DNA from: Lachnospiraceae bacterium
GTDB lineage: Bacteria > Bacillota > Clostridia > Lachnospirales > Lachnospiraceae
Direction of reading: 5' to 3'
Length of the DNA: 37,505 nt
Assembly (NCBI GenBank): GCA_017461775.1
Contig: JAFTXD010000034.1
Location: forward strand, 1 to 37,505
Shown: positions 4,097-20,280 of the stretch, in pieces
How the letters are laid out: each line of letters starts with the position of its first letter
How positions within the stretch are numbered: position 1 is the stretch's first letter
Program-made: the position numbers and the translations under genes
Notes under the pieces: generated by a model
What the model saw: the letters and a program-made list of their open reading frames with translations, nothing else
Databases searched by the model: none
What the model was told of the DNA's origin: nothing

Positions 4097-4136
4097 CATG
4101 ACGTTTATGGAAAAGAAAATTTTCATAAACGTCATG
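4097..4136. promoter_or_regulatory. Candidate operator 1 (CATGACGTTT inverted repeat), possibly also a terminator
   Basis: The outer 13 bp on each side are perfect inverted repeats (CATGACGTTTATG and its complement), with GGAAAA/TTTTC inside. The whole site spans exactly 40 bp, as does the matching core of the palindrome at 6814-6853. A TACAAT that could be a -10 box follows at 4158-4163, 21 nt after the site, nearly the spacing seen at the second site. A run of T follows at about 4139-4146, so the hairpin could also terminate the hisS-aspS transcript. Both roles are possible. Confidence 0.55.
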
Positions 4137-4234
4137 TATTTTTTTTAGTAAAATAAGTACAATGTAATTGTAACGTTACAAAAGAAACATTTTAATTGAT
4201 GGAGTAAGAAATTATTATACGAGGAGAAGAACAT

Positions 4235-4317
4235 ATGCGAAGACTGTTACAAATGCAAGCAAGGTGGAATATTCTGATGCTGGATTTAATTGGAAACTTT
4301 CATCAGTAGTATACTAG
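4235..4317 (+). pseudogene. Short gene remnant between operator 1 and the lipoprotein gene
   Basis: A GAGGAGAAGA ribosome site precedes an ATG at 4235 that opens a 24-codon frame of no recognisable character, ending at 4309. The next frame reads KTVTNASKVEYSDAGFNWK then LSSVVY and a stop at 4315-4317. That looks more like the polar C-terminus of a secreted protein than chance. A one-base shift after the start codon would join the two. I interpret it, weakly, as a decayed or internally deleted small secreted-protein gene under operator 1, mirroring the intact gene at 6950. Confidence 0.3.
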
Positions 4318-4327
4318 GTGAGTAAAG

Positions 4328-4675
4328 ATGAAAAGAATATTAATAATCATATGTTGTATGCTGTTAACTGCATGTGGTAAGGATACATATGTTGAAACAC
4401 CAAATTCCCAGAGACCATCCATTAATGTCGGGGGAACTATATATCATTCTACCGGGTATGAAGCACCGAAGGAAGAGCTGTCAGCTGAGGTTTTGGGGTA
4501 TATTAGCTCCGTTGTAAATCTGTCAGAGCTTGCGGAAAAGGACGGAGAAGCAAATATCCCCTTTGAAGGGGCACCCTATGCCTTATGTGGAGAGGGTATT
4601 GCAGTGAAGATGGATGAGGTGTGGACATTATTCCTTCCGGCGGAGAATGGAGCCCACGCATATGTAAATGAATAG
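4328..4675 (+). CDS. Small putative lipoprotein of unknown function
   Basis: The 115-residue product starts with a short signal peptide ending in a lipobox, LLTAC, with the lipidated cysteine at residue 16. The mature part contains NVGGTIYHSTGYEAP followed by an acidic region and GEGIAVKMDEVWTLF. This resembles, from memory, small lipoproteins common in Lachnospiraceae, but no function is assigned. It should be anchored on the outer face of the membrane. It sits downstream of operator 1 and its putative -10 box, and ends at a strong terminator, so it may belong to the same regulon as the secreted protein at 6950. Start at ATG 4328 gives a proper signal peptide. Confidence 0.7.
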   Translation: MKRILIIICCMLLTACGKDTYVETPNSQRPSINVGGTIYHSTGYEAPKEELSAEVLGYISSVVNLSELAEKDGEANIPFEGAPYALCGEGIAVKMDEVWTLFLPAENGAHAYVNE

Positions 4676-4690
4676 TGATGTGTAATGAAG

Positions 4691-4739
4691 AAAAGTCATT
4701 CCCTTATTTGGTATTGCCATTTGGGGGAGTGACTTTTTT
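4691..4739 (+). terminator. Rho-independent terminator after the lipoprotein gene
   Basis: AAAAGTCATTCCC at 4691-4703 pairs with GGGAGTGACTTTT at about 4726-4738 through one G-U pair, then runs into T residues. It separates the lipoprotein gene from the regulator gene. Confidence 0.8.
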
Positions 4740-4743
4740 ACTC

Positions 4744-4772
4744 TTGGCAAAGGTCTAAATGAATAGTAAAAT
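4744..4772 (+). promoter_or_regulatory. Promoter of the tandem HTH regulator gene
   Basis: TTGGCA at 4744-4749, 17-bp spacer, TAAAAT at 4767-4772. Transcription would start near 4779, which excludes the upstream GTG at 4775 and supports the ATG at 4808 as the regulator start. Confidence 0.7.
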
Positions 4773-4807
4773 AAGTGAAAGGAGTAGAACATTGCAAGGA
4801 GATAGGT

Positions 4808-6601
4808 ATGATTAAGCTTCAAATCGGTCAAATGCTTTATGATATCAGAACAGAAATGGAGATTACACAGGAAGAATTATGTGAGGGGTTATGTACGGTA
4901 TCTGCATTGTCAAAGTATGAGAACGGAACGAGATTTCCGGATAGTCTTTTATTCCATGCCCTTATGCAAAGATTGGGAAAGTCACCCAGCAGGATTAATA
5001 TTATGGTTTCTGAGCAGGAGGCAGTTTATTATGAGTGGAAAAAGAAGACGTTAGATGCTATCAAAGCGCAGAGGTGGGAAGAGGTAAAGGCGCTGCGAGA
5101 AAAAGGGCATGAGGAGAATGCGTTGATTAATGAGAGTTTGCAAAGGCAATTTGAATTGTACTTGGATTCCATAATATGGGATAAGCTACATCATAATCAG
5201 GAAAAGTCATATGAGTGTATAGGAGAAGCTATCCACTTAACCATGCCGGATATCGATAGCTGGGATGGAAAGAGGAAGCTTATCAGTGGGGATGAGATGA
5301 ATATGGCTTTTTTATATTTGCGTGCAGAGAAAAAGCTGGGGATAAAGAGTGATGCTGAGCTTAAGAAGCAATTTGATGCTTTTACAAGATATGTGAATCA
5401 AAGAGTGGATGATGTTTTTGAAAAAGCAAAGCTTTATCCACGACTAGTTTGTGCACAGATATATTTAGTGGATATGGATGTACGGGAACGAATTTTTCTG
5501 GAGAAAAAGGCTTTGAGCTTACTTAAGCAAACCAGGGAAATCTATGATATGCCGGAAGTCTTACGATTACTGGTGAAGGATTTGCGTAGTGTGGGAGCGG
5601 AAGATGTTGTAATTTATGAAAAGCAGAGGGCTGCGTTGGTTGAAGTAATCAATGAATTTGGTACGCCGTATACCTTCCGACTGGAGAATTGGTATGATAG
5701 TAATGAGCAGATTTGCCTGATGAATGAGTATCTGAGGGCAGCCAGAATGCAGAAACAGATGACGCAGGAGGAGCTGAGTGAGGGGATTTGTGCAGTGGAG
5801 ACATATTCCCGCATTGAAAGCGGAAAGAGGTCTCCGAGTAAGAGGAATTATCTGGAATTGGCAGAGAAGCTTGAGGTCAATTGGGGGTATTATCGTGGGC
5901 AAATTGTAACAACGCATTTTAGAGATTTTGAAATAATGACGAAGCAGCGCTTTGCTATGCTGGATGATAGATTGGAGGAATCCGAAGAGTATTTATATGA
6001 TTTAAAAAAGAGTCTGGATATGGAGGACATTGAGAATCGGCAGTATATTGGTCTGCAAGAGCTGATTCTAACGGACCAAAGGGGAGAAATAGTGGGGGAA
6101 GCATTTGTAGAGAGGTGCGAGGAGCTCTTGAAATATACACTGGAGGATTGGAGGGAGACGGAACGCTTTTTGACTAAAACGGAATTAGAGTTGATTTTTC
6201 AAATGGGCTGGTATTATGAGAGTAAGAAGGAATATGGGAAGGTTGTGTATATTTTAGAGAATGCCTTAAGGAAATACGAAACGAGAAAATACTCTTCATG
6301 GTATGAGATAGGTCTTATGAAGCGTATGTTGGCAGGTGGATATTCTGACTTAGGAGAGTATGAAAAAAGCAATGAGATGATGAATGCGTTAATTCGGGAA
6401 ATGCTAAATTGGCAGGATGGACAAGCACTGGCAGAGGCTGTTTATCTGCTGGGATGGAATTATGAAAATCAGAAAAAAGCCTGTGACGATTTGTATGTCA
6501 AAGCCTTTTACCTGAGTGATTTATTTGAAAATCATATGCATCATGCAATTTTTCAGAAATACTATGAGGATAATTTTAATTCTGAGATGCAATGGTATTA
6601 A
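4808..6601 (+). CDS. Tandem XRE-HTH / helical-repeat regulator (RRNPP-like)
   Basis: Predicted cytosolic transcription regulator of 597 residues. The first HTH lies at about residues 6-63 (TQEELCEGLCTVSALSKYEN) and the second at about 300-357 (TQEELSEGICAVETYSRIES). Each is followed by some 240 residues of acidic, amphipathic helices that look like TPR-type repeats, for example WYYESKKEYGKVVYILENAL near the C-terminus. The halves are each about 300 residues, the size of a single PlcR/Rgg-type regulator, so the protein looks like an internal duplication. ATG 4808 has a good AAGGAGA site and fits the promoter. The gene ends tail-to-tail with a tiny signal-bearing peptide gene, sharing two bases. 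By analogy with PlcR-PapR this suggests peptide control, but peptide binding is inference. Confidence 0.8.
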   Translation: MIKLQIGQMLYDIRTEMEITQEELCEGLCTVSALSKYENGTRFPDSLLFHALMQRLGKSPSRINIMVSEQEAVYYEWKKKTLDAIKAQRWEEVKALREKGHEENALINESLQRQFELYLDSIIWDKLHHNQEKSYECIGEAIHLTMPDIDSWDGKRKLISGDEMNMAFLYLRAEKKLGIKSDAELKKQFDAFTRYVNQRVDDVFEKAKLYPRLVCAQIYLVDMDVRERIFLEKKALSLLKQTREIYDMPEVLRLLVKDLRSVGAEDVVIYEKQRAALVEVINEFGTPYTFRLENWYDSNEQICLMNEYLRAARMQKQMTQEELSEGICAVETYSRIESGKRSPSKRNYLELAEKLEVNWGYYRGQIVTTHFRDFEIMTKQRFAMLDDRLEESEEYLYDLKKSLDMEDIENRQYIGLQELILTDQRGEIVGEAFVERCEELLKYTLEDWRETERFLTKTELELIFQMGWYYESKKEYGKVVYILENALRKYETRKYSSWYEIGLMKRMLAGGYSDLGEYEKSNEMMNALIREMLNWQDGQALAEAVYLLGWNYENQKKACDDLYVKAFYLSDLFENHMHHAIFQKYYEDNFNSEMQWY

Positions 6602-6747
6602 TGTTTGGAACCACGTGAGGTAGGGGGAGTATCTAAGGACATTACTTCATAGATATCCTCGGACGGAAGCGTATCAGGGATGATGGGCGTAAGTACCAGA
6701 CAGCCAATCATGGTTAAGAGTAAAAGTTTTTTGATTAGATTTTTCAT
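6598..6747 (-). CDS. 49-residue secreted peptide precursor, candidate pheromone
   Basis: On the minus strand an AAGGAGA site (6756-6762) precedes an ATG at 6747 by nine bases. The product starts MKNLIKKLLLLTMIGCLVL, a classic short signal sequence, then TPIIPDTLPSEDIYEVMSLD and ends TPPTSRGSKH. The size and layout (basic start, hydrophobic core, short polar tail) match precursors such as PapR (48 residues) that are exported, trimmed and reimported to control an HTH-TPR regulator. It lies beside such a regulator and has its own promoter running off the 48-bp palindrome. A longer frame from 6816 is open but lacks this ribosome site. The cysteine at residue 16 makes a small lipopeptide an alternative. 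Confidence 0.7.
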   Translation of the reverse strand: MKNLIKKLLLLTMIGCLVLTPIIPDTLPSEDIYEVMSLDTPPTSRGSKH

Positions 6748-6786
6748 TCGTGAGTTCTCCTTATATATTAAATATTTACAGTAAAT

Positions 6787-6809
6787 AGTATAGGATATGG
6801 TAAGATTCT
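6787..6809 (-). promoter_or_regulatory. Promoter of the peptide gene, activator-dependent type
   Basis: On the minus strand TATACT (6792-6787) is preceded 17 bp upstream by the end of the palindrome (TGGGAA), with no consensus -35. The palindrome occupies the -35 position, as expected for an activator-dependent promoter. Confidence 0.55.
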
Positions 6810-6857
6810 TTCCCATGACGTTTTCGGAAAATTAATTTTCCGAAAACGTCATGGGAA
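6810..6857. promoter_or_regulatory. Operator 2: 48-bp perfect palindrome between divergent promoters
   Basis: Each 24-bp half reads TTCCCATGACGTTTTCGG then AAAATT, with perfect dyad symmetry centred between 6833 and 6834. The core CATGACGTTT...AAACGTCATG spans 40 bp (6814-6853), the same geometry as at 4097-4136. It lies between the peptide gene (minus) and the secreted-protein operon (plus), touching the -35 position on both sides: the -10 boxes sit 17 and 16 bp from its ends. It is not followed by a T-run on either strand, so a terminator role is unlikely. The best reading is a regulator binding site, probably for the tandem HTH protein. Confidence 0.7.
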
Positions 6858-6879
6858 TTGGAACAAGAAACGGTATAAT
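6858..6879 (+). promoter_or_regulatory. Promoter of the secreted-protein/ABC operon
   Basis: TATAAT at 6874-6879 lies 16 bp after the palindrome end, and no consensus -35 exists; ATGGGA is in its place. The transcript would start near 6886, at a tandem ATGTTGCA repeat, leaving a leader of about 65 nt before the AAGGAG site of the gene at 6950. Confidence 0.6.
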
Positions 6880-6949
6880 GATGTTGCAATGTTGCAATAG
6901 AAGGGATAGCTACTCTGAACCACAATACAATATATAAGGAGAAAAAGAT

Positions 6950-7363
6950 ATGTTTGAGAAATCAAAAAAAGTAATTTTAAGAGCATTAGTAGTTCCTGCT
7001 TGTATGGCAGTAATGTCAATGACGGCATTTGCCGGAAATAGTTTCGAGGGTTATGATACCAATGTTGGTATGCTTAATGGATCTGGTTATTCTAATACTC
7101 AGGTTAAGGCAACTTCCGGGGCAAATGGAGCCATTAATTCAACTAGTGTCAGCGGTGATTATTTAGTTGATGTGAGAATGGAGAAGAATGATGGTTCTGC
7201 ATGCGGTGATTGGTTCAGAGATCTTAATGATAATATGCAAACGGGTTATGTTATAGATGGCCATAAGGGACAAGCATATGGAGATAGTGTAAGATTGAAG
7301 TTTTCTAATGATTTAACTACGCTTGTGAAGGTACAGGTGGTTGGTACTTGGTGTAGTCAGTAA
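6950..7363 (+). CDS. Secreted 137-residue protein, bacteriocin-like or DUF2712-like context
   Basis: A Sec signal peptide covers residues 1-28 (basic start, hydrophobic core, MTAFA then cleavage before GNSF). The mature part is about 109 residues, rich in Gly, Ser, Asn and Thr, with two cysteines (85 and 135) that could form a disulfide, and ends VVGTWCSQ. The family is not recognised. Small secreted proteins followed by two membrane proteins and an ABC ATPase are known from lactococcin 972-type loci and from DUF2712 loci in Firmicutes; the resemblance is in gene order and the final beta-like VGxW stretch only. A strong AAGGAG site precedes the ATG. The operator-linked promoter suggests density-dependent expression. 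Confidence 0.75.
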   Translation: MFEKSKKVILRALVVPACMAVMSMTAFAGNSFEGYDTNVGMLNGSGYSNTQVKATSGANGAINSTSVSGDYLVDVRMEKNDGSACGDWFRDLNDNMQTGYVIDGHKGQAYGDSVRLKFSNDLTTLVKVQVVGTWCSQ

Positions 7364-7375
7364 AATTAATTTGTG

Positions 7376-7405
7376 TGCCGAGTGCACTGGTAAGTGTACT
7401 CGGCA
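7376..7405 (+). terminator. Intercistronic hairpin after the secreted-protein gene
   Basis: TGCCGAGTGCACT pairs with AGTGTACTCGGCA (one G-U) around a GGTA loop. No T-run follows. It may be a 3'-stabilising or partial-termination hairpin that keeps the secreted product more abundant than the transporter genes starting 16 bp later. Confidence 0.5.
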
Positions 7406-7420
7406 TATTGTGAGGAAAGT

Positions 7421-8158
7421 ATGACGAGTAGAAAATATAGAATATTAGAGTTTGGAGTTGTTATAATTGTTGGGTTGTTTGTGTATTGTATCAATATTTT
7501 AAGTGTTGCTAATAATACAACCTATAGGTATGCAATAGAAGTTTGGAATTATGGAAGATCTTTTTTGAATGTATTATATCCTGTTATTTTTACCGCGCCA
7601 TTTTGTTGGTTATTGTTTTATGAGCAAAACAGTTTTTACTGGCAATATATATACAACAGGATGATGCTTAAAGCGTATCTACGAAGAAGAGGTATTACTT
7701 TAATAGGTTTATCGTCTATAGCAATGTTTATTGTATCTGTTGGAGGGTTTGTATTTGCATACATAGTAGAGCCAATTGGAAGAGTGTTGGAGTATGAACC
7801 GATGATGACATATTTATTTTTAGGAACTTTTCAAATTGATAATCCGGTGGTATATGTTTTAGTTTTGTCGTGCTGGCGCGGAGTATTAGCTGGTTTATAC
7901 ACATTTTTTTCCATAATGATAACATTGTCTACAAAAAATATATTTGTTGCTATGACTAGTGCATTTGTATATTCCATAATGGAAAATTTTATTCTTGCGG
8001 TATTACAGGTTCCGGAATTAAGTATTTGTACTTCTTTTTACCCCAATAGACTAACTGGTTCGGCTATTTCCTATGGTAAGTTAGCTGTTGGGCCGATTAT
8101 TTTGCTGGTTATTACGTTACTAACGTATTTTTATAATAAATGGAAATATAAGAGATAG
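7421..8158 (+). CDS. Multi-pass membrane protein, putative ABC-2-like permease subunit
   Basis: A 245-residue integral membrane protein with about six hydrophobic segments: FGVVIIVGLFVYCI, VLYPVIFTAPFCWLLF, ITLIGLSSIAMFIVSVGGFV, LVLSCWRGVLAGLYTFF, VAMTSAFVYSIMENFIL and GPIILLVITLLTYFY. The ATG at 7421 has a GAGGAAAG site; an upstream in-frame start at 7394 lies within the hairpin and is less likely. It lies between the secreted protein and a second membrane protein, with the ATPase two genes on, so it probably forms part of a transporter for export of, or immunity to, the secreted protein. The family is not recognised by name. AT content is clearly higher than in the flanking housekeeping genes. 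Confidence 0.65.
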   Translation: MTSRKYRILEFGVVIIVGLFVYCINILSVANNTTYRYAIEVWNYGRSFLNVLYPVIFTAPFCWLLFYEQNSFYWQYIYNRMMLKAYLRRRGITLIGLSSIAMFIVSVGGFVFAYIVEPIGRVLEYEPMMTYLFLGTFQIDNPVVYVLVLSCWRGVLAGLYTFFSIMITLSTKNIFVAMTSAFVYSIMENFILAVLQVPELSICTSFYPNRLTGSAISYGKLAVGPIILLVITLLTYFYNKWKYKR

Positions 8159-8167
8159 AGGTGTTGT

Positions 8168-9697
8168 ATGCGCCAAATTACGAAGTATTATACAAAGGTT
8201 TTATTTTATGAATTTTATAATTTGAACTGGAAATTACTGCTTACAATAGCGGTTTTTTCTTTTTATACATCTTACAATTTAAAAGAGATAAGCGATTGTA
8301 CAATTTATGAATATTCGCTTTTGGCAATGAGTGATTACTACTACTTTATATTCTATTTTTTTATTTTATATACTACGTTGATATTCAAGTTAATCAAAAA
8401 TGAGAGTGAATTGATTATTATAAGGACGAAAAAATTTTTTTGCAATTATTTTAGCAAGCTTCTCGCGGTTGCGGTATTTACACTGAGTCTTTTGTTTTTG
8501 CACATCTTAATCGCTATGCTGTTAGGTGTGCCAAAATGTAATATGGAAAATCAGTTTGCTCTTTTGACGAATATTAGGGGCGATTATTCGAAGATTAATG
8601 CTATATATAGTGCTTATTTTAAAAACCCTGTTCAGGCTATTTTGGGGAGTTGTATATTCACATCATTAGGACTAATTTGTTATTCGGGAACTCTAATGCT
8701 GGTATCACATTTTCTTAATGAGAAATGTGCAATACTTTTAGTGATTATATCATTTTTTGCTACTGTTTTAGCTCTTCATGTAAATGTTGATAATGGTGCT
8801 CCTTATCTTTTTCTTATCAATTATCTTTTTTTTCATAGAGCAGTTATAAGTAATGTGTCTTTATATTTATTTTTAGGAATAGAGGTTTCTTTCTTTGTTT
8901 TTTTGCTACTGTGGACGAAATGCAGAGGTGTTTCTCATGCAAAGAAAATACTTCTTCCCGTTCGAATGTTGAATAATGTTTTTACAACAAAAAATATGGT
9001 GTTGTTTATATTTGTTATATTAGTATTATCAATCATGAATATACTAAAAAATTATGGTGGTGCAAATTCGGGGCTGGAATATGCCATATTGGGGTATGAC
9101 GGATACGGATTAGGATATTTAAATGTAGTAGAATTTTTTAATTTAATTATAATAAACGGGATTCCGATATATATCATCTCTACATATCTAAGTAGTAAAA
9201 ATTCTATGAGAAATATGGTCTTAATTAGGTATAACTCGAAAAAGAAATATTTTTTTCATCTGCAATGTTCTATGCTGATGATTATAATAATAGAAATGCT
9301 GGCTTATACCTTTTTTAATATATTGCTTGGAACTGGTGTTACATATGGTAATGACGTAAAAATTTCAGCTTTAGATGTACTACTGATTAGTGCTGTATTA
9401 AGAATATCTGAATTGATGTTTTTGGAAATATTATATTTGCTGTTATTTTCCGTTTTGAAAAATACAACATTTTCTTTCTTTTGTACTATGGCATTCTATC
9501 TGTTAATAGTGCTGTTTGATTATGAGTGGCTACCTTTTGGTTTATCGTCTATTAAGCGAATGATTGGCCTGGATAATGAGAGCATAAAAAATATGGCATT
9601 GACCTCATGTTTATTATTTTGGGGTATTTATGGTTTGGGATATTTATATTTAAACAAAAGTAAAACAATTGAAAAAATTATAGGTGAAAGGAATTGA
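8168..9697 (+). CDS. Large polytopic membrane protein of the ABC cassette
   Basis: A 509-residue protein with roughly eleven or twelve hydrophobic helices and few charged loops. An AGAGG site overlaps the stop region of the previous gene. It resembles, in size and position only, the large membrane proteins associated with bacteriocin ABC cassettes. It has no visible extracytoplasmic enzyme motif. Together with the 245-residue protein and the ATPase it would make one transporter. Codon use is extremely AT-rich, with many ATA and TTA codons, consistent with horizontal acquisition of the whole island. Its stop lies four bases before the chosen ATPase start. Confidence 0.65.
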   Translation: MRQITKYYTKVLFYEFYNLNWKLLLTIAVFSFYTSYNLKEISDCTIYEYSLLAMSDYYYFIFYFFILYTTLIFKLIKNESELIIIRTKKFFCNYFSKLLAVAVFTLSLLFLHILIAMLLGVPKCNMENQFALLTNIRGDYSKINAIYSAYFKNPVQAILGSCIFTSLGLICYSGTLMLVSHFLNEKCAILLVIISFFATVLALHVNVDNGAPYLFLINYLFFHRAVISNVSLYLFLGIEVSFFVFLLLWTKCRGVSHAKKILLPVRMLNNVFTTKNMVLFIFVILVLSIMNILKNYGGANSGLEYAILGYDGYGLGYLNVVEFFNLIIINGIPIYIISTYLSSKNSMRNMVLIRYNSKKKYFFHLQCSMLMIIIIEMLAYTFFNILLGTGVTYGNDVKISALDVLLISAVLRISELMFLEILYLLLFSVLKNTTFSFFCTMAFYLLIVLFDYEWLPFGLSSIKRMIGLDNESIKNMALTSCLLFWGIYGLGYLYLNKSKTIEKIIGERN

Positions 9698-9701
9698 TGT
9701 A

Positions 9702-10337
9702 ATGGAGAAAATTATAGAGCTGATAGGGGTAAAAAAGGTTTTTAAAGGGAATGAATTATTTTCAGATGTTAATTTGCAAATAGAAAAGGGAACAATAGTG
9801 GGATTTAAGGGAAGGAATGGTGTAGGGAAATCTGTTTTATTCAAAATGATTTCCGGCCTATATATGCCAGACGAAGGAAGTATATATGTAAGAGGGAAAA
9901 AAATAGGAGAGGACATCGACTACCCTTCTAATATGGGTATAATGATAGATACGCCGAGTTTTATCGAAGTTCTTTCCGGTTATGAAAATCTGCTTATGTT
10001 AGCAGAGATTAACGGTATAATAAGTGGTGATAGAATTAAAGAGGAGATGGTTAAATTTGGTTTAGACGCAAACAGCAAAAAAAGCGTGAAAAATTATTCC
10101 CTAGGAATGAGAGCAAAATTAGGAATCATTCAAGCAACTATGGAAGGACAGGATATAATCGTTTTAGATGAACCATTTAATGCGTTAGATGAGAAGTCTT
10201 GTGAGTATGTATATGCTCTAATTAAGACATTAAAGGCAAAAGGAGCCACTATTTTGTTGACATCACACAATCAATCAGATTTGGATGAATTATGTGACAT
10301 TCAATATTTGTTACCTACATTTACAGCATCGAATTAG
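9702..10337 (+). CDS. ABC transporter ATPase (BcrA-like subfamily)
   Basis: Energises the adjacent membrane proteins. The 211 residues include Walker A GRNGVGKS (Lys 43), the signature YSLGMRAKLGII, Walker B DIIVLDEPFNALD, and an H-loop TSHNQSDLDELCD. The expected Q-loop glutamine is replaced in IMIDTPSF, as I recall for bacitracin-type (BcrA) ATPases, which bind membrane permeases made of separate polypeptides. The ATG at 9702 is chosen with GAAAGGAA upstream; a GTG at 9684 is a weaker start. The C-terminus is short and ends LLPTFTASN instead of the usual strand-turn-strand, so a small 3' frameshift is possible, though core motifs are intact. Confidence 0.88.
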   Translation: MEKIIELIGVKKVFKGNELFSDVNLQIEKGTIVGFKGRNGVGKSVLFKMISGLYMPDEGSIYVRGKKIGEDIDYPSNMGIMIDTPSFIEVLSGYENLLMLAEINGIISGDRIKEEMVKFGLDANSKKSVKNYSLGMRAKLGIIQATMEGQDIIVLDEPFNALDEKSCEYVYALIKTLKAKGATILLTSHNQSDLDELCDIQYLLPTFTASN

Positions 10338-10357
10338 GATATGTTGGGAGAGTGAAT

Positions 10358-11011
10358 ATGAAGAAAAAATATTACATAGCAATTATCGCGTTGTTGGTGA
10401 TTTTAATAATAATGAATGCAGGCATGCTGAATAAAGGGAATGGAAGTCCTAATTTTGATGAGAATATCGTACAACTGATGACGCAGTACAATGAGGAGTA
10501 TGAAGGCATAGAGCTCACGGCCCCCATGGAAATTGTAGTGCATGAGATTTATTATGGCTCGTTTTCTGCTAAGGACGCGGACGAGATGCTTGTGGTATGT
10601 AAGGTATTAAACGCACCCCATGTGGCAGGGCTGGATAAGACTTTATGCGCTGTATTAGAGGCAGAGACATTGGAGCTGGTGGCATACGAGCAGTTCGAAG
10701 CGGATAAGGTAGTGACTGCATGTGTGAAAAATAGTGAAGGTCAGAGCCGGATTTTGGTTTCCGCGGTTGCCGGTAGTCAGGGCTTTTATTCACAAATGCT
10801 CAGTCTTTTTTCTGTTGAGGATAAGCAATGGGTAAGTATTCCACAGGAGAACTTGGATTACTTTGGTGAGGAAGCTTATTACTTTGTGGGGGAAAATTGT
10901 CTCATCGTGTCCTCGTCTGCTAGTGAGTTAAAGACGGAGGAAATCGTAGCCGTGCTTCATTGGGATGCATATGCGGAGCAATTTGTTGCAGAGAATACTA
11001 GTGGTAATTGA
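10358..11011 (+). CDS. Membrane-anchored extracellular protein of unknown function
   Basis: A 217-residue protein with one N-terminal hydrophobic segment (YYIAIIALLVILIIMNAGML) acting as an uncleaved anchor or signal, then a soluble domain rich in acidic residues and beta-like stretches such as DEMLVVCKVLNAP and EIVAVLHWDAYAEQF. The ATG at 10358 follows GGGAGAG closely; a GTG two codons upstream is the alternative. It starts 20 bp after the ATPase gene, so it may be the last gene of that operon, although its base composition is less AT-rich. No family is recognised. Immunity to the secreted protein is only a positional guess. Confidence 0.6.
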   Translation: MKKKYYIAIIALLVILIIMNAGMLNKGNGSPNFDENIVQLMTQYNEEYEGIELTAPMEIVVHEIYYGSFSAKDADEMLVVCKVLNAPHVAGLDKTLCAVLEAETLELVAYEQFEADKVVTACVKNSEGQSRILVSAVAGSQGFYSQMLSLFSVEDKQWVSIPQENLDYFGEEAYYFVGENCLIVSSSASELKTEEIVAVLHWDAYAEQFVAENTSGN

Positions 11012-15403: not shown

Positions 15404-16711
15404 ATGGGTTTTCCAAAGGACTTTTTATGGGGAGGCGCCAGTGCGGCGTTTCAGATTGAGGGAGCATACAATGAGGATGGCAAGGGGCTTGGCATCTGGG
15501 ATGCTCTGTCAGAGGGGCATATCCGGTTAAATGCTACCGGAAACAGAGCCTGCGACCATTATCACAGATATAAAGAGGACGTGGCGATTATGAAGCAGCT
15601 GGGTTTTAAATCCTACCGCTTCTCCATCAGCTGGCCCAGAGTAATTCCCAGGGAGGGAGTAGTTAATGAAAAGGGGCTTGCCTTTTATAAGGATTTAGTG
15701 AAGGAGCTGACCGAGGCAGGGATTGAACCCATGGTGACCCTGTTTCATTGGAACCTTCCCATGTGGATGCATGAGAAGGGGGGCTGGGTGAATCCACAGG
15801 TGGCAGATTACTTTGCGGAGTATGCCCAGGTAGTGGTGGATGCCCTGTCGGATAAGGTTAGATACTGGATGACCATCAACGAGCCCCAGCTTTTTGCCGG
15901 AGCGGGATATGTGGATGGAAATCATGCACCTTTCCTGAGAATGCCAGCGATGTTTGGCAGAATTTCCCGGAATATTATGGTTGCCCACGGTAAGGCTGTA
16001 AAGGTAATTAGGGAAAATGCCAAGCTCGTTCCCATGGTGGGCATGGCTCCTACGGGAAGTGCTGTGATTCCTAAGTCAGATTCTGCAGAGGATTTAGAAC
16101 AGGCGCGTTTTGAAACCTATGAGGGAGACGGACCTAATGGGAATGCCTGGTGGGCGGACCCCATTTGCCTTGGTATCATACCGGAGGGACTTAAAGACGA
16201 TATCACCCCGGAGGATTTGGAAATCATATACCAGCCATTGGATTTTTATGGATTTAATATCTATACCGCCCAGAATTTCTGGACTCAGGACAAAGGGGTA
16301 AATCCGGAACTATACGATGGTATGCCCCGAACCGGTTTTGACTGGGTCATTAAGCCGGAGAGTATTTACTATGCGGCCAAGTTCCATTATGAGCGCTACG
16401 GGCTTCCGGTAATCATTACGGAAAATGGAATGTCCAACCCGGATTTTGTAATGCTGGACGGCAAAGTACACGATCCACAGAGAATCGACTACATCCACAG
16501 ATACCTTTTACAGCTAAAGCGTGCAGTGGATGAGGGCGTGAAGGTTATCGGATACCAGTATTGGTCCATTTTAGACAATATGGAGTGGACGGAAGGGTAT
16601 GAGAGACGTTTTGGACTTGTCCATGTGGATTATCAGACCTTAAAAAGAACCATCAAGGATTCCGGCTATTTCTATGCGGAAGTAATCAAAACAAACGGAG
16701 AGAACTTATGA
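15404..16711 (+). CDS. GH1 family beta-glucosidase
   Basis: Hydrolyses terminal beta-linked glucose or galactose from short oligosaccharides, presumably in the cytosol since no signal peptide is seen. The 435-residue protein has the GH1 hallmarks: the N-terminal FLWGGASAAFQIEGAY, the acid/base Glu 160 in TINEP, the nucleophile Glu 340 in ITENG, and the substrate-binding WSILDNMEWTEGYERRFGL near the C-terminus. The length is normal. ATG 15404 follows GGAGGAGAAGGGA. The stop overlaps the moxR start (ATGA), so a sugar hydrolase and a MoxR module share a transcript. No phosphotransferase components are nearby, which favours unphosphorylated substrates. Confidence 0.94.
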   Translation: MGFPKDFLWGGASAAFQIEGAYNEDGKGLGIWDALSEGHIRLNATGNRACDHYHRYKEDVAIMKQLGFKSYRFSISWPRVIPREGVVNEKGLAFYKDLVKELTEAGIEPMVTLFHWNLPMWMHEKGGWVNPQVADYFAEYAQVVVDALSDKVRYWMTINEPQLFAGAGYVDGNHAPFLRMPAMFGRISRNIMVAHGKAVKVIRENAKLVPMVGMAPTGSAVIPKSDSAEDLEQARFETYEGDGPNGNAWWADPICLGIIPEGLKDDITPEDLEIIYQPLDFYGFNIYTAQNFWTQDKGVNPELYDGMPRTGFDWVIKPESIYYAAKFHYERYGLPVIITENGMSNPDFVMLDGKVHDPQRIDYIHRYLLQLKRAVDEGVKVIGYQYWSILDNMEWTEGYERRFGLVHVDYQTLKRTIKDSGYFYAEVIKTNGENL

Positions 16712-17643
16712 CAGGAAAAGAATTCGGACAGAAAATCAAAGAAAATATCAGTAAAGTAATTATCGGTAAGGAGGAGACCATCCACCTTCTTCTGACCGCA
16801 CTGTTGGCAGACGGTCATGTGCTCCTCGAGGATGTGCCGGGAACCGGTAAGACCAAAGTGGCAAAATCTCTGGCGGCATCCCTGGATGCGGAGTTTAGCC
16901 GTATTCAGTTTACACCGGATCTTCTTCCGGGAGATATTACCGGTCTTACCATCTATGACCAGAAAAAGGGAGAGTTTGTGCTTCGTAAGGGACCGGCTTT
17001 TACCAATATTCTTTTAGCAGATGAAATTAATCGTGCCACACCCAGAACCCAGTCAGGACTTCTGGAGTGTATGGAGGAGCGTCAGATTACCATCGACGGG
17101 GAAACCCTTCCCGCTGGTGTGCCCTTCTTCGTTATCGCCACCCAGAATCCGGTGGAAACCGCAGGTACATTTCCTCTTCCTGAGGCGCAGATGGACCGTT
17201 TTATGATGATGCTTTCCATGGGACTTCCGGGAAAGGATGAGGAAGTGCAGATTATGGAGCGCTATATGAAGGGGGAGCCGCTGGCAGAGCTTAAAGCAGT
17301 TGCCACCTTAGAGGAGCTTGCAAAGGCTAAGGAGGACGTGGAGAATGTCTTTGTACATAAGTGCATTTTAGAATACATGGCGGAAATCGTGGCAGCTACC
17401 AGACAGGGAGAAAATGTGATGATGGGAGTAAGTCCCCGTGGTACGCTGGCTTTCCTTCGTTGCGTGAAGGCCCACGCTTATCTGGAGGGCAGAGATTTTG
17501 TAACTCCCGATGATGTGAAGGCTTTGGCGGAGCCGGTTCTTGCCCATCGTATTGTTATGGGCTATGGAAATGCAACCGAGAGCAGACGCATGGTGGAGCA
17601 GATTTTAAAGACCGTGCCGGTACCTACAGAGGATTTTAAATAA
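16708..17643 (+). CDS. MoxR-family AAA+ ATPase
   Basis: A 311-residue AAA+ ATPase thought to act as a chaperone-like assembly factor. Walker A is LEDVPGTGKTK (Lys 48), the MoxR signature region includes RIQFTPDLLPGDITG, Walker B is ILLADEINRATPRTQSGLLE, sensor 1 is VIATQNPVE, and sensor 2 lies near VSPRGTLAFLRCVKAHA. The length is typical. It overlaps the glucosidase gene by four bases and is followed without a gap by a DUF58 gene and then a polytopic membrane protein: the classic MoxR-DUF58 operon. The client is unknown; cell-envelope or surface-enzyme maturation is the usual proposal. Confidence 0.94.
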   Translation: MTGKEFGQKIKENISKVIIGKEETIHLLLTALLADGHVLLEDVPGTGKTKVAKSLAASLDAEFSRIQFTPDLLPGDITGLTIYDQKKGEFVLRKGPAFTNILLADEINRATPRTQSGLLECMEERQITIDGETLPAGVPFFVIATQNPVETAGTFPLPEAQMDRFMMMLSMGLPGKDEEVQIMERYMKGEPLAELKAVATLEELAKAKEDVENVFVHKCILEYMAEIVAATRQGENVMMGVSPRGTLAFLRCVKAHAYLEGRDFVTPDDVKALAEPVLAHRIVMGYGNATESRRMVEQILKTVPVPTEDFK

Positions 17644-20246: not shown

Positions 20247-20280
20247 AAAACCTTGAAAGTGATTGCTTTCAAGGTTTTTT
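20247..20280 (+). terminator. Terminator of the tRNA-Glu transcript
   Basis: AAAACCTTGAAAG (20247-20259) pairs with CTTTCAAGGTTTT (20266-20278) and runs into a T tract. Confidence 0.92.

Follow-up and report, generated by a model that had tools for sequence, protein, structure and literature searches.

The DNA analyzed here is a stretch of 37,505 nt from a Lachnospiraceae bacterium (GenBank assembly GCA_017461775.1, contig JAFTXD010000034.1, positions 1 to 37,505; hereafter the window), belonging to an assembly of 2.9 Mb in 172 contigs that is rated 82% complete. It carries a locus in which a regulator of 597 residues, a convergent gene for a small signal-bearing peptide, a long palindrome, and a divergent operon for a secreted protein and its ATP-binding cassette (ABC) genes lie side by side. 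We consider this locus, with a probability of about 0.77, to be an RRNPP/PlcR-type peptide-responsive activator system with a covalently doubled receptor. Comparison of sequences shows an architecture that recurs in other genomes, a shared operator and promoter geometry, an old doubling of the regulator, a C-terminal regulator half resembling PlcR, and an exchangeable output.

A recurrent peptide gene and putative operator

The four parts of the locus had been recognized in the initial annotation, and they stand largely as described there. On the forward strand, the double RRNPP-like regulator (4808-6601) contains two matches to the HTH_3 helix-turn-helix (HTH) model, HTH1 at residues 7-60 (4826-4987) and HTH2 at residues 306-358 (5723-5881), along with two helical-repeat halves, whose TPR-like repeats were detected by profile only. 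On the reverse strand, the gene for the 49-residue peptide precursor (6598-6747) converges on the regulator and ends inside it, with a stop overlap of 4 nt (6598-6601) rather than the two bases first reported; the peptide begins with a basic start, followed by a hydrophobic stretch. Between this gene and the operon lies a perfect palindrome of 48 bp (6810-6857, 2 x 24 bp, with a core CATG...CATG at 6814-6853), the putative operator of two divergent promoters, whose -10 hexamers are TATACT for the peptide gene (6787-6792, reverse strand, 21 nt off the operator edge) and TATAAT for the operon (6874-6879, forward strand, 20 nt off the edge). The operon itself (6950-10337, forward strand) consists, as annotated, of genes for the secreted protein of 137 residues (6950-7363), two membrane proteins of the ABC cassette (7421-8158 and 8168-9697), and the ABC ATPase (9702-10337).

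Homologues of the regulator (E-value 1e-10 or better) were found in at least 31 of 299 Lachnospiraceae genomes, its own included; the genome counts for the regulator are lower bounds, with the best four candidates per genome scored in this search and the best three in the class-wide and phylum-wide samples discussed below. Two sets of loci were used to study what accompanies the regulator. The first comprised 40 fetched stretches, i.e. 41 regulators with the window, of which one lacking downstream sequence was excluded, leaving 40; the second comprised 43 loci from named genomes, of which 6 on repeated contigs, 1 without an open reading frame (ORF), and 2 with less than 300 nt downstream were set aside, leaving 34. 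A peptide gene was scored by rule as an antisense ORF of 35-75 codons with an ATG start, a Shine-Dalgarno sequence, an early Lys or Arg and a hydrophobic stretch, and with its stop between -50 and +60 nt relative to the regulator end. Such an ORF was present beside 24 of the 40 regulators in the first set but beside only 1 of the 285 control genes taken from these stretches, and beside 22 of the 34 in the second set. The initial annotation would have been refuted by a peptide gene that is not kept next to related regulators, and on this check both sets came out in its favor, although many regulators lack the gene by this rule. Many of the peptide-regulator overlaps are exactly 4 nt (offset -3). 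The sole positive control sits in locus L056, where a stop breaks the regulator frame, and this hit may be the regulator's own peptide; a peptide is likewise present in L088, and was missed by the rule because the regulator frame is broken there. The genome of the window holds two further double regulators (L049 and L052), each with its own peptide and with one operator of a different type (AATGCCCAAA...TTTGGG(C/T)ATT), so that three separate channels may coexist within it. Elsewhere, locus L048 carries two closely similar double regulators (4522-6309 and 15599-17404) with differing peptides and near-identical operators, possibly a recent duplication with peptide divergence.

The peptide can be compared in detail with that of L086, a locus from a roe-deer metagenome-assembled genome (MAG), whose regulator has 69% best-segment identity to that of the window and occupies the same chromosomal site, being preceded by the same histidyl- and aspartyl-type tRNA synthetase and phosphopantetheinyl transferase genes (identified through Pfam models in the window and, in L086, because the starts of the sequences match). 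The two peptides are 59% identical, with 13/17 identical residues at the start, 5/15 in the middle and 11/17 at the end. Their ends read YEVMSLDTPPTSRGSKH in the window and YEVMPLDIPPFSKGTGH in L086, sharing a C-terminal region YEVMxLDxPPxSxGxxH, and this pattern of start and end conservation fits a signal peptide plus a candidate C-terminal pheromone. Base differences between the two genes number 15, 11 and 26 at codon positions 1, 2 and 3, an excess at the third position by which the ORF behaves like coding sequence.

The region before the peptide gene often contains a long palindrome (CATGACGTTTnnGGAAA and variants). When the 250-nt stretch preceding the peptide start was scored (or the region downstream of the regulator end, where a peptide was lacking), a palindrome score of 14 or more was reached at 18 of 40 regulator loci versus 6 of 223 control regions located upstream of other genes, and two of these six controls, both in L070 and including the top control score of 33, are operators of the same type before other genes. 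These L070 operators, of the AATGACGTTT...GGAAATT type, precede two frames on the minus strand (1502-2353 and 9622-10608, counted on the reverse strand), and the genes behind them are possible further regulon members in G047. By rule, an ATG-edged palindrome of at least 34 bp accompanies 42 of 61 regulators (18/24 in the first set and 24/37 in the named set), a count biased by the choice of those 24 first-set loci, which were hand-picked among the 40 chiefly because they had a peptide or a palindrome. For the operator rows, visual inspection added L086, L092, L100 and L123, while L041, L059, L094 and L101 were removed, giving 42; L109 failed trimming, which leaves 41 operators in the shuffle-tested geometry, and it is mis-trimmed on the operon side in the 42-row count. 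Typical arms are CATGACGTTTTTGGAAAA, CATGTCAAAACTGGAAAA and CATGTCGTATTTGGAAAA, the edges are mostly CATG(A/T)C, and the lengths range from 36 to 59 bp, with 24/41 at 40-42 bp and 8/41 at 49-52 bp, i.e. two classes approximately one helical turn apart.

The position of these palindromes relative to promoter elements is highly regular. When all hexamers matching TATAAT at 5 or more positions were counted (side labels being arbitrary for perfect palindromes), a -10 hexamer was located exactly 21 nt off one edge in 30 of 41 operators and off the other edge in 26 of 41, compared with a maximum of 7 at any offset in 300 shuffles. With sides kept, the best -10 fell at 20-21 nt in 29/42 on the peptide side and in 20/42 on the operon side, and since the operator rows are related to one another, these counts are not independent events. 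That the palindrome belongs with the regulator, as the initial annotation had supposed, is borne out by its recurrence beside homologous regulators with a fixed promoter distance on both sides. The fixed spacing also means that the operator edge occupies the -35 place, which is a usual position of an activator. In a consensus scan of the window, no sigma-70-like promoter at these -10s scored as high as 9/12, hence a poor -35, as expected of an activated promoter; the geometry is what one would expect of an operator serving a divergent pair of promoters. In a partial Mantel test (39 of the 40 loci), operator distance tracked HTH2 distance for every part of the operator (partial r 0.16-0.50), and HTH1 added nothing clear (partial r -0.06 to 0.10). 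An arrangement with HTH1 and HTH2 reading outer and inner elements of each arm is unsupported by this test, as the distance follows HTH2 only.

A palindrome scan of the whole window (minimum arm 13, no more than one mismatch, maximum loop 12) yielded four palindromes, of which 6810-6857 and 4097-4136 form a related pair and those at 20247 and 26513 look like terminators. The exact pattern CATGACGTTT-N(4-30)-AAACGTCATG has two sites only in the entire 82%-complete assembly, both of them flanking the regulator. The second of these operator-like palindromes (4097-4136, CATGACGTTTATG...CATAAACGTCATG) is not discussed in the initial annotation, although its interval starts there. It is followed on the forward strand by a -10 hexamer TACAAT 21 nt off its edge (4158-4163), by a putatively coding ORF of 24 codons with a strong Shine-Dalgarno sequence (4235-4309, MRRLLQMQARWNILMLDLIGNFHQ), which is the first ORF past the palindrome, and by a lipoprotein-like gene of 115 residues (4328-4675, lipobox judged by eye), the probable target. 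The syntenic orthologue L086 lacks both this second palindrome and the lipoprotein gene.

The doubled regulator and its relatives

The tandem duplication noted in the initial annotation is present in the window's regulator, and we can add that the doubling spans the family rather than being a property of a single locus. Profiles of the N-terminal and C-terminal halves (N-half and C-half, 33 sequences each) align with one another across 259 columns with a probability of 99.9, and in a tree of 74 halves, 32/33 N-halves and 32/33 C-halves are found on opposite sides, the exception being L074, both halves of which sit on long branches. Some loci have two adjacent genes in place of the fused chain; in the split pairs tested (L058, L065 and L071), the upstream member clusters among the N-halves and the downstream member among the C-halves, and since the last frame measures just 301-350 residues at 17 of the 42 named loci, split pairs are probably common. 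Wider sampling gave matches in 8 of 341 genomes across the class and 9 of 348 across the phylum (own genome counted in each), and full-length double matches were confined to Lachnospiraceae in both samples, the others being single relatives of ~300-330 residues or partial matches. The two half-clades and the wider sampling together indicate that the duplication is old and, within the samples, limited to Lachnospiraceae. A match in a MAG labeled Anaerolineaceae (L114), a label that we take to mean Chloroflexota, forms an exception to this confinement, for which contamination or transfer is possible. A mainly phage or plasmid origin of the regulator is disfavored by mobile-element databases, where hits to it (E-value 1e-5) came from 3 phage records (of 50,697) and 1 plasmid record (of 72,556). 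Three 6-kb records from human feces labeled 'Bacteriophage sp.' (MT837868.1, MT837704.1 and MT837634.1) match the double regulator.

Among known receptors, the relatives of the two halves agree with the PlcR/Rgg type proposed in the initial annotation. When compared with PDB sequences, the C-half profile has PlcR as its top match (E-value 2.7e-22), over profile positions 9-298 of 307, spanning both the HTH and the TPR part. The N-half profile matches the 'Transcriptional regulator' 5w4m, presumably Rgg (E-value 1.7e-6, residues 5-106), and PrgX (1.4e-4), these Rgg/PrgX-type matches falling in the HTH region (first 60-100 residues), and it also matches PlcR at 0.0092 over 1-274, which is weak but whole-length. 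The locus therefore combines two features of RRNPP systems, i.e. a receptor with an N-terminal HTH and TPR-type repeats related to PlcR, Rgg and PrgX, and an adjacent small gene for a precursor predicted, from hydropathy, to be exported.

Output genes, proposed mechanism and alternatives

The genes under the presumed control of the regulator differ between loci. L086 retains the peptide, the stop overlap and the palindrome, and its divergent operon opens with radical-SAM and transporter-like genes (the transporter being judged by eye). Matches to the secreted 137-residue protein come from 6 of 299 genomes, counting its own (one of them is a fragment with stops). Both membrane proteins and the ATPase stand beside its homologues in L081, L082 and L084, where the cassette comes after genes for a response regulator and a histidine kinase (in L082 the kinase frame covers the ATPase part only); the L083 homologue is accompanied by the first membrane protein and by an ATPase frame that is shorter, with no two-component genes before the cassette. 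Since the L086 operon differs, and the cassette occurs elsewhere behind two-component genes, sensor module and output are evidently exchangeable, and the secreted-protein operon, seen as the output in the window by the initial annotation, is one among several. Ten hand-picked output proteins from other loci included five radical-SAM proteins, two ABC proteins, one LytR_cpsA_psr protein, and two without a match. The secreted protein itself has no convincing match in Pfam, NCBIfam, PHROG or PADLOC, and its assignment to a known bacteriocin family was rejected, as there was no family match and PDB sequences gave designed proteins over ~22 residues; the secreted protein of L090 has no detectable homology to it. 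A membrane-anchored exported protein (10358-11011, forward strand), whose gene starts 20 nt past the ATPase gene, may be part of the operon as its last gene. The window ATPase has 211 residues, compared with 223 in three homologues, and the alignment stops at residue 204, its C-terminus (10300-10337) being different or truncated.

From this arrangement we infer peptide export, processing, re-import and binding, activation rather than repression, and a role for the secreted protein, along the following lines. The 49-residue precursor would be exported through its signal sequence and cleaved near the C-terminus, in the YEVMxLDxPPxSxGxxH region, and the mature peptide would be re-imported, probably via an oligopeptide permease (the genome holds an oligopeptide-binding-protein homologue, which allows re-import without showing that step), to bind the helical-repeat part of the regulator. 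The peptide-loaded regulator would then bind the palindrome, with its 40-bp core, the outer edges of which overlap both -35 positions, and activate the peptide gene (positive feedback) as well as the secreted-protein/ABC operon. The second operator would place the 24-codon ORF and the lipoprotein gene under the same control, and the secreted protein might be a product of the bacteriocin type, served by a transporter of its own.

Several observations weigh against a peptide-activated receptor of this kind. The rule finds no peptide beside 16/40 regulators of the first set and 12/34 of the second, the G047 homologues L035, L036 and L070 being among those without one, and the export signals of the peptides were judged by hydropathy, not by SignalP. 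No ATG-edged palindrome is found by rule in 19 of 61 regulators, four of which were then accepted by eye, and palindrome 4097-4136 also scores as a terminator-like hairpin with a T-run, and may terminate. With regard to the receptor, engineered TPR proteins head the PDB matches of the N-half (to 2.2e-31), and the Pfam model RNPP_C matches 7/28 C-halves (E-value 0.1 or better, best 2.2e-7), that of the window not included. Finally, the column of PlcR Asn201, which we take to be a peptide-contact residue, holds Asn in 15/28 C-halves and Met in the window, and this counts against a canonical peptide contact in the window's C-half.

A more elaborate version of the same idea, which we hold tentatively and at somewhat less than even odds, sees two specialized RRNPP receptors working as an obligate pair that grips a palindrome of 40-50 bp and integrates two inputs (e.g. 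a precursor-derived pheromone and a second, leaderless or cargo-derived, peptide), thereby serving as a plug-in controller whose output is swapped between species. It builds on the halves being separate old clades, kept either as a fused chain or as adjacent genes.

Among the explanations that depart from a peptide-activated activator, a repressor that is relieved by the peptide fares best, and is still unlikely. It has an RRNPP precedent, as QspB-derived peptides counteract QsrB according to the available excerpt of PMC7376267; against it stand the operator edge lying over the -35 place and the poor -35 that each of the two promoters has in the window, both typical of activated promoters. We find it rather improbable that the secreted peptide is another product of the regulon (antimicrobial or immunity) instead of the ligand, with the regulator sensing the operon product or an internal signal. 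The regulators without a peptide and the missing Asn at the Asn201 column speak in its favor, as do other short ORFs behind the operator: with strong Shine-Dalgarno sequences, L035 has one of 10 residues (after 10747) and L110 one of 8 residues (after 7079), both near leaderless communication peptides (8-10 residues) in size, and L036 has one of 32 residues (after 5779) that is RiPP-precursor-like, i.e. resembling the precursor of a ribosomally synthesized and post-translationally modified peptide (RiPP). However, the overlap of peptide and regulator stops persists as the output genes change, the C-half resembles PlcR, itself a peptide receptor, and the C-terminus of the peptide is kept better than its middle between the window and L086, although not better than its start. 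Very little speaks for the palindromes being bidirectional terminators or repetitive elements: A/T runs flank several of them and 4097-4136 scores as terminator-like, but the two exact-pattern copies in the genome both flank the regulator, the -10 hexamers are fixed at 21 nt on both sides, the palindromes lie upstream of two divergent genes, where a terminator would be needless, and operator distance tracks HTH2 distance. That the antisense peptide ORF arose by chance is hardly credible, for although it is short and without a convincing Pfam or NCBIfam match, its enrichment over the control genes and the third-position excess of base changes relative to L086 argue against it.

Comparison with known systems

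Most work on RRNPP peptide quorum sensing concerns Bacillus, Streptococcus, Enterococcus and a small number of clostridia, and Lachnospiraceae are an abundant mammalian gut family. In open-licence PMC papers, none was found that combines RRNPP, Lachnospiraceae and quorum sensing, and among the matches listed, no tandem-fused RRNPP receptor is described and RRNPP-type signaling is undescribed for Lachnospiraceae. The terms 'lachno', 'two HTH', 'fusion' and 'convergent' were not found in the portion of PMC9765709 available, and the available portions of PMC10626739 and PMC10838665 mention RNPP and Lachnospir, but contain nothing resembling the present system. The recurrent operator, with its fixed -10 spacing, predicts target genes, and every peptide-bearing locus offers a candidate pheromone open to synthesis, which makes signaling and the control of RiPP- or bacteriocin-like products testable in gut commensals; the fused and split forms of one pair also raise the question of why two receptors should be linked.

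The RRNPP_detector catalogue follows the same search idea, accepting by default receptors of 250-500 residues (validated on 285-473) with an adjacent precursor of 10-100 residues (excerpt of PMC10075063), and its main text has no occurrence of lachno, blautia or roseburia. A double receptor of 600 residues lies outside this default rule, and is therefore not covered by it; the 597-residue chain exceeds the range, either half taken singly falls within it, and there are split pairs of ~310 residues. Qsr/Qsp of Clostridium acetobutylicum, in the excerpt of PMC7376267, also has an HTH-TPR regulator with an adjacent downstream precursor gene (39-50 residues), which is shared with the present loci; its Qsp peptides all conserve a C-terminal P and W, and no double receptor or long palindrome was found in that excerpt.

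The convergent, overlapping layout is shared with group III Rgg/SHP systems of streptococci, in which, according to the excerpt of PMC13361665, the SHP genes run into the rgg end and leaderless peptides have 8-10 residues; the overlap here is 4 nt. Rgg/SHP systems are also reported to control radical-SAM RiPPs (RaS-RiPP clusters), and several relatives here likewise adjoin radical-SAM genes. In contrast to Rgg/SHP, the present loci have a doubled receptor with a PlcR-like C-half, Sec-like precursors of 35-75 residues (by the search rule), and a long palindrome. With PlcR-PapR of the Bacillus cereus group, they share the PlcR-like C-half, a small Sec-type precursor beside the regulator, a palindromic operator before the promoter and, as suggested here, positive autoregulation. 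PlcR is a single chain of 293 residues, whereas here we find a fused double receptor of ~600 residues or two adjacent genes, and the 16-bp PlcR box TATGnAnnnnTnCATA (excerpt of PMC2464732) is replaced by palindromes that measure 36-59 bp, carry CATG(A/T)C edges in most cases, keep a fixed spacing to a promoter on either side, and lie next to a convergent peptide gene. Taken together, the system appears to be a recurrent Lachnospiraceae version of known cell-to-cell signaling, with the fused double receptor as its apparently new element.

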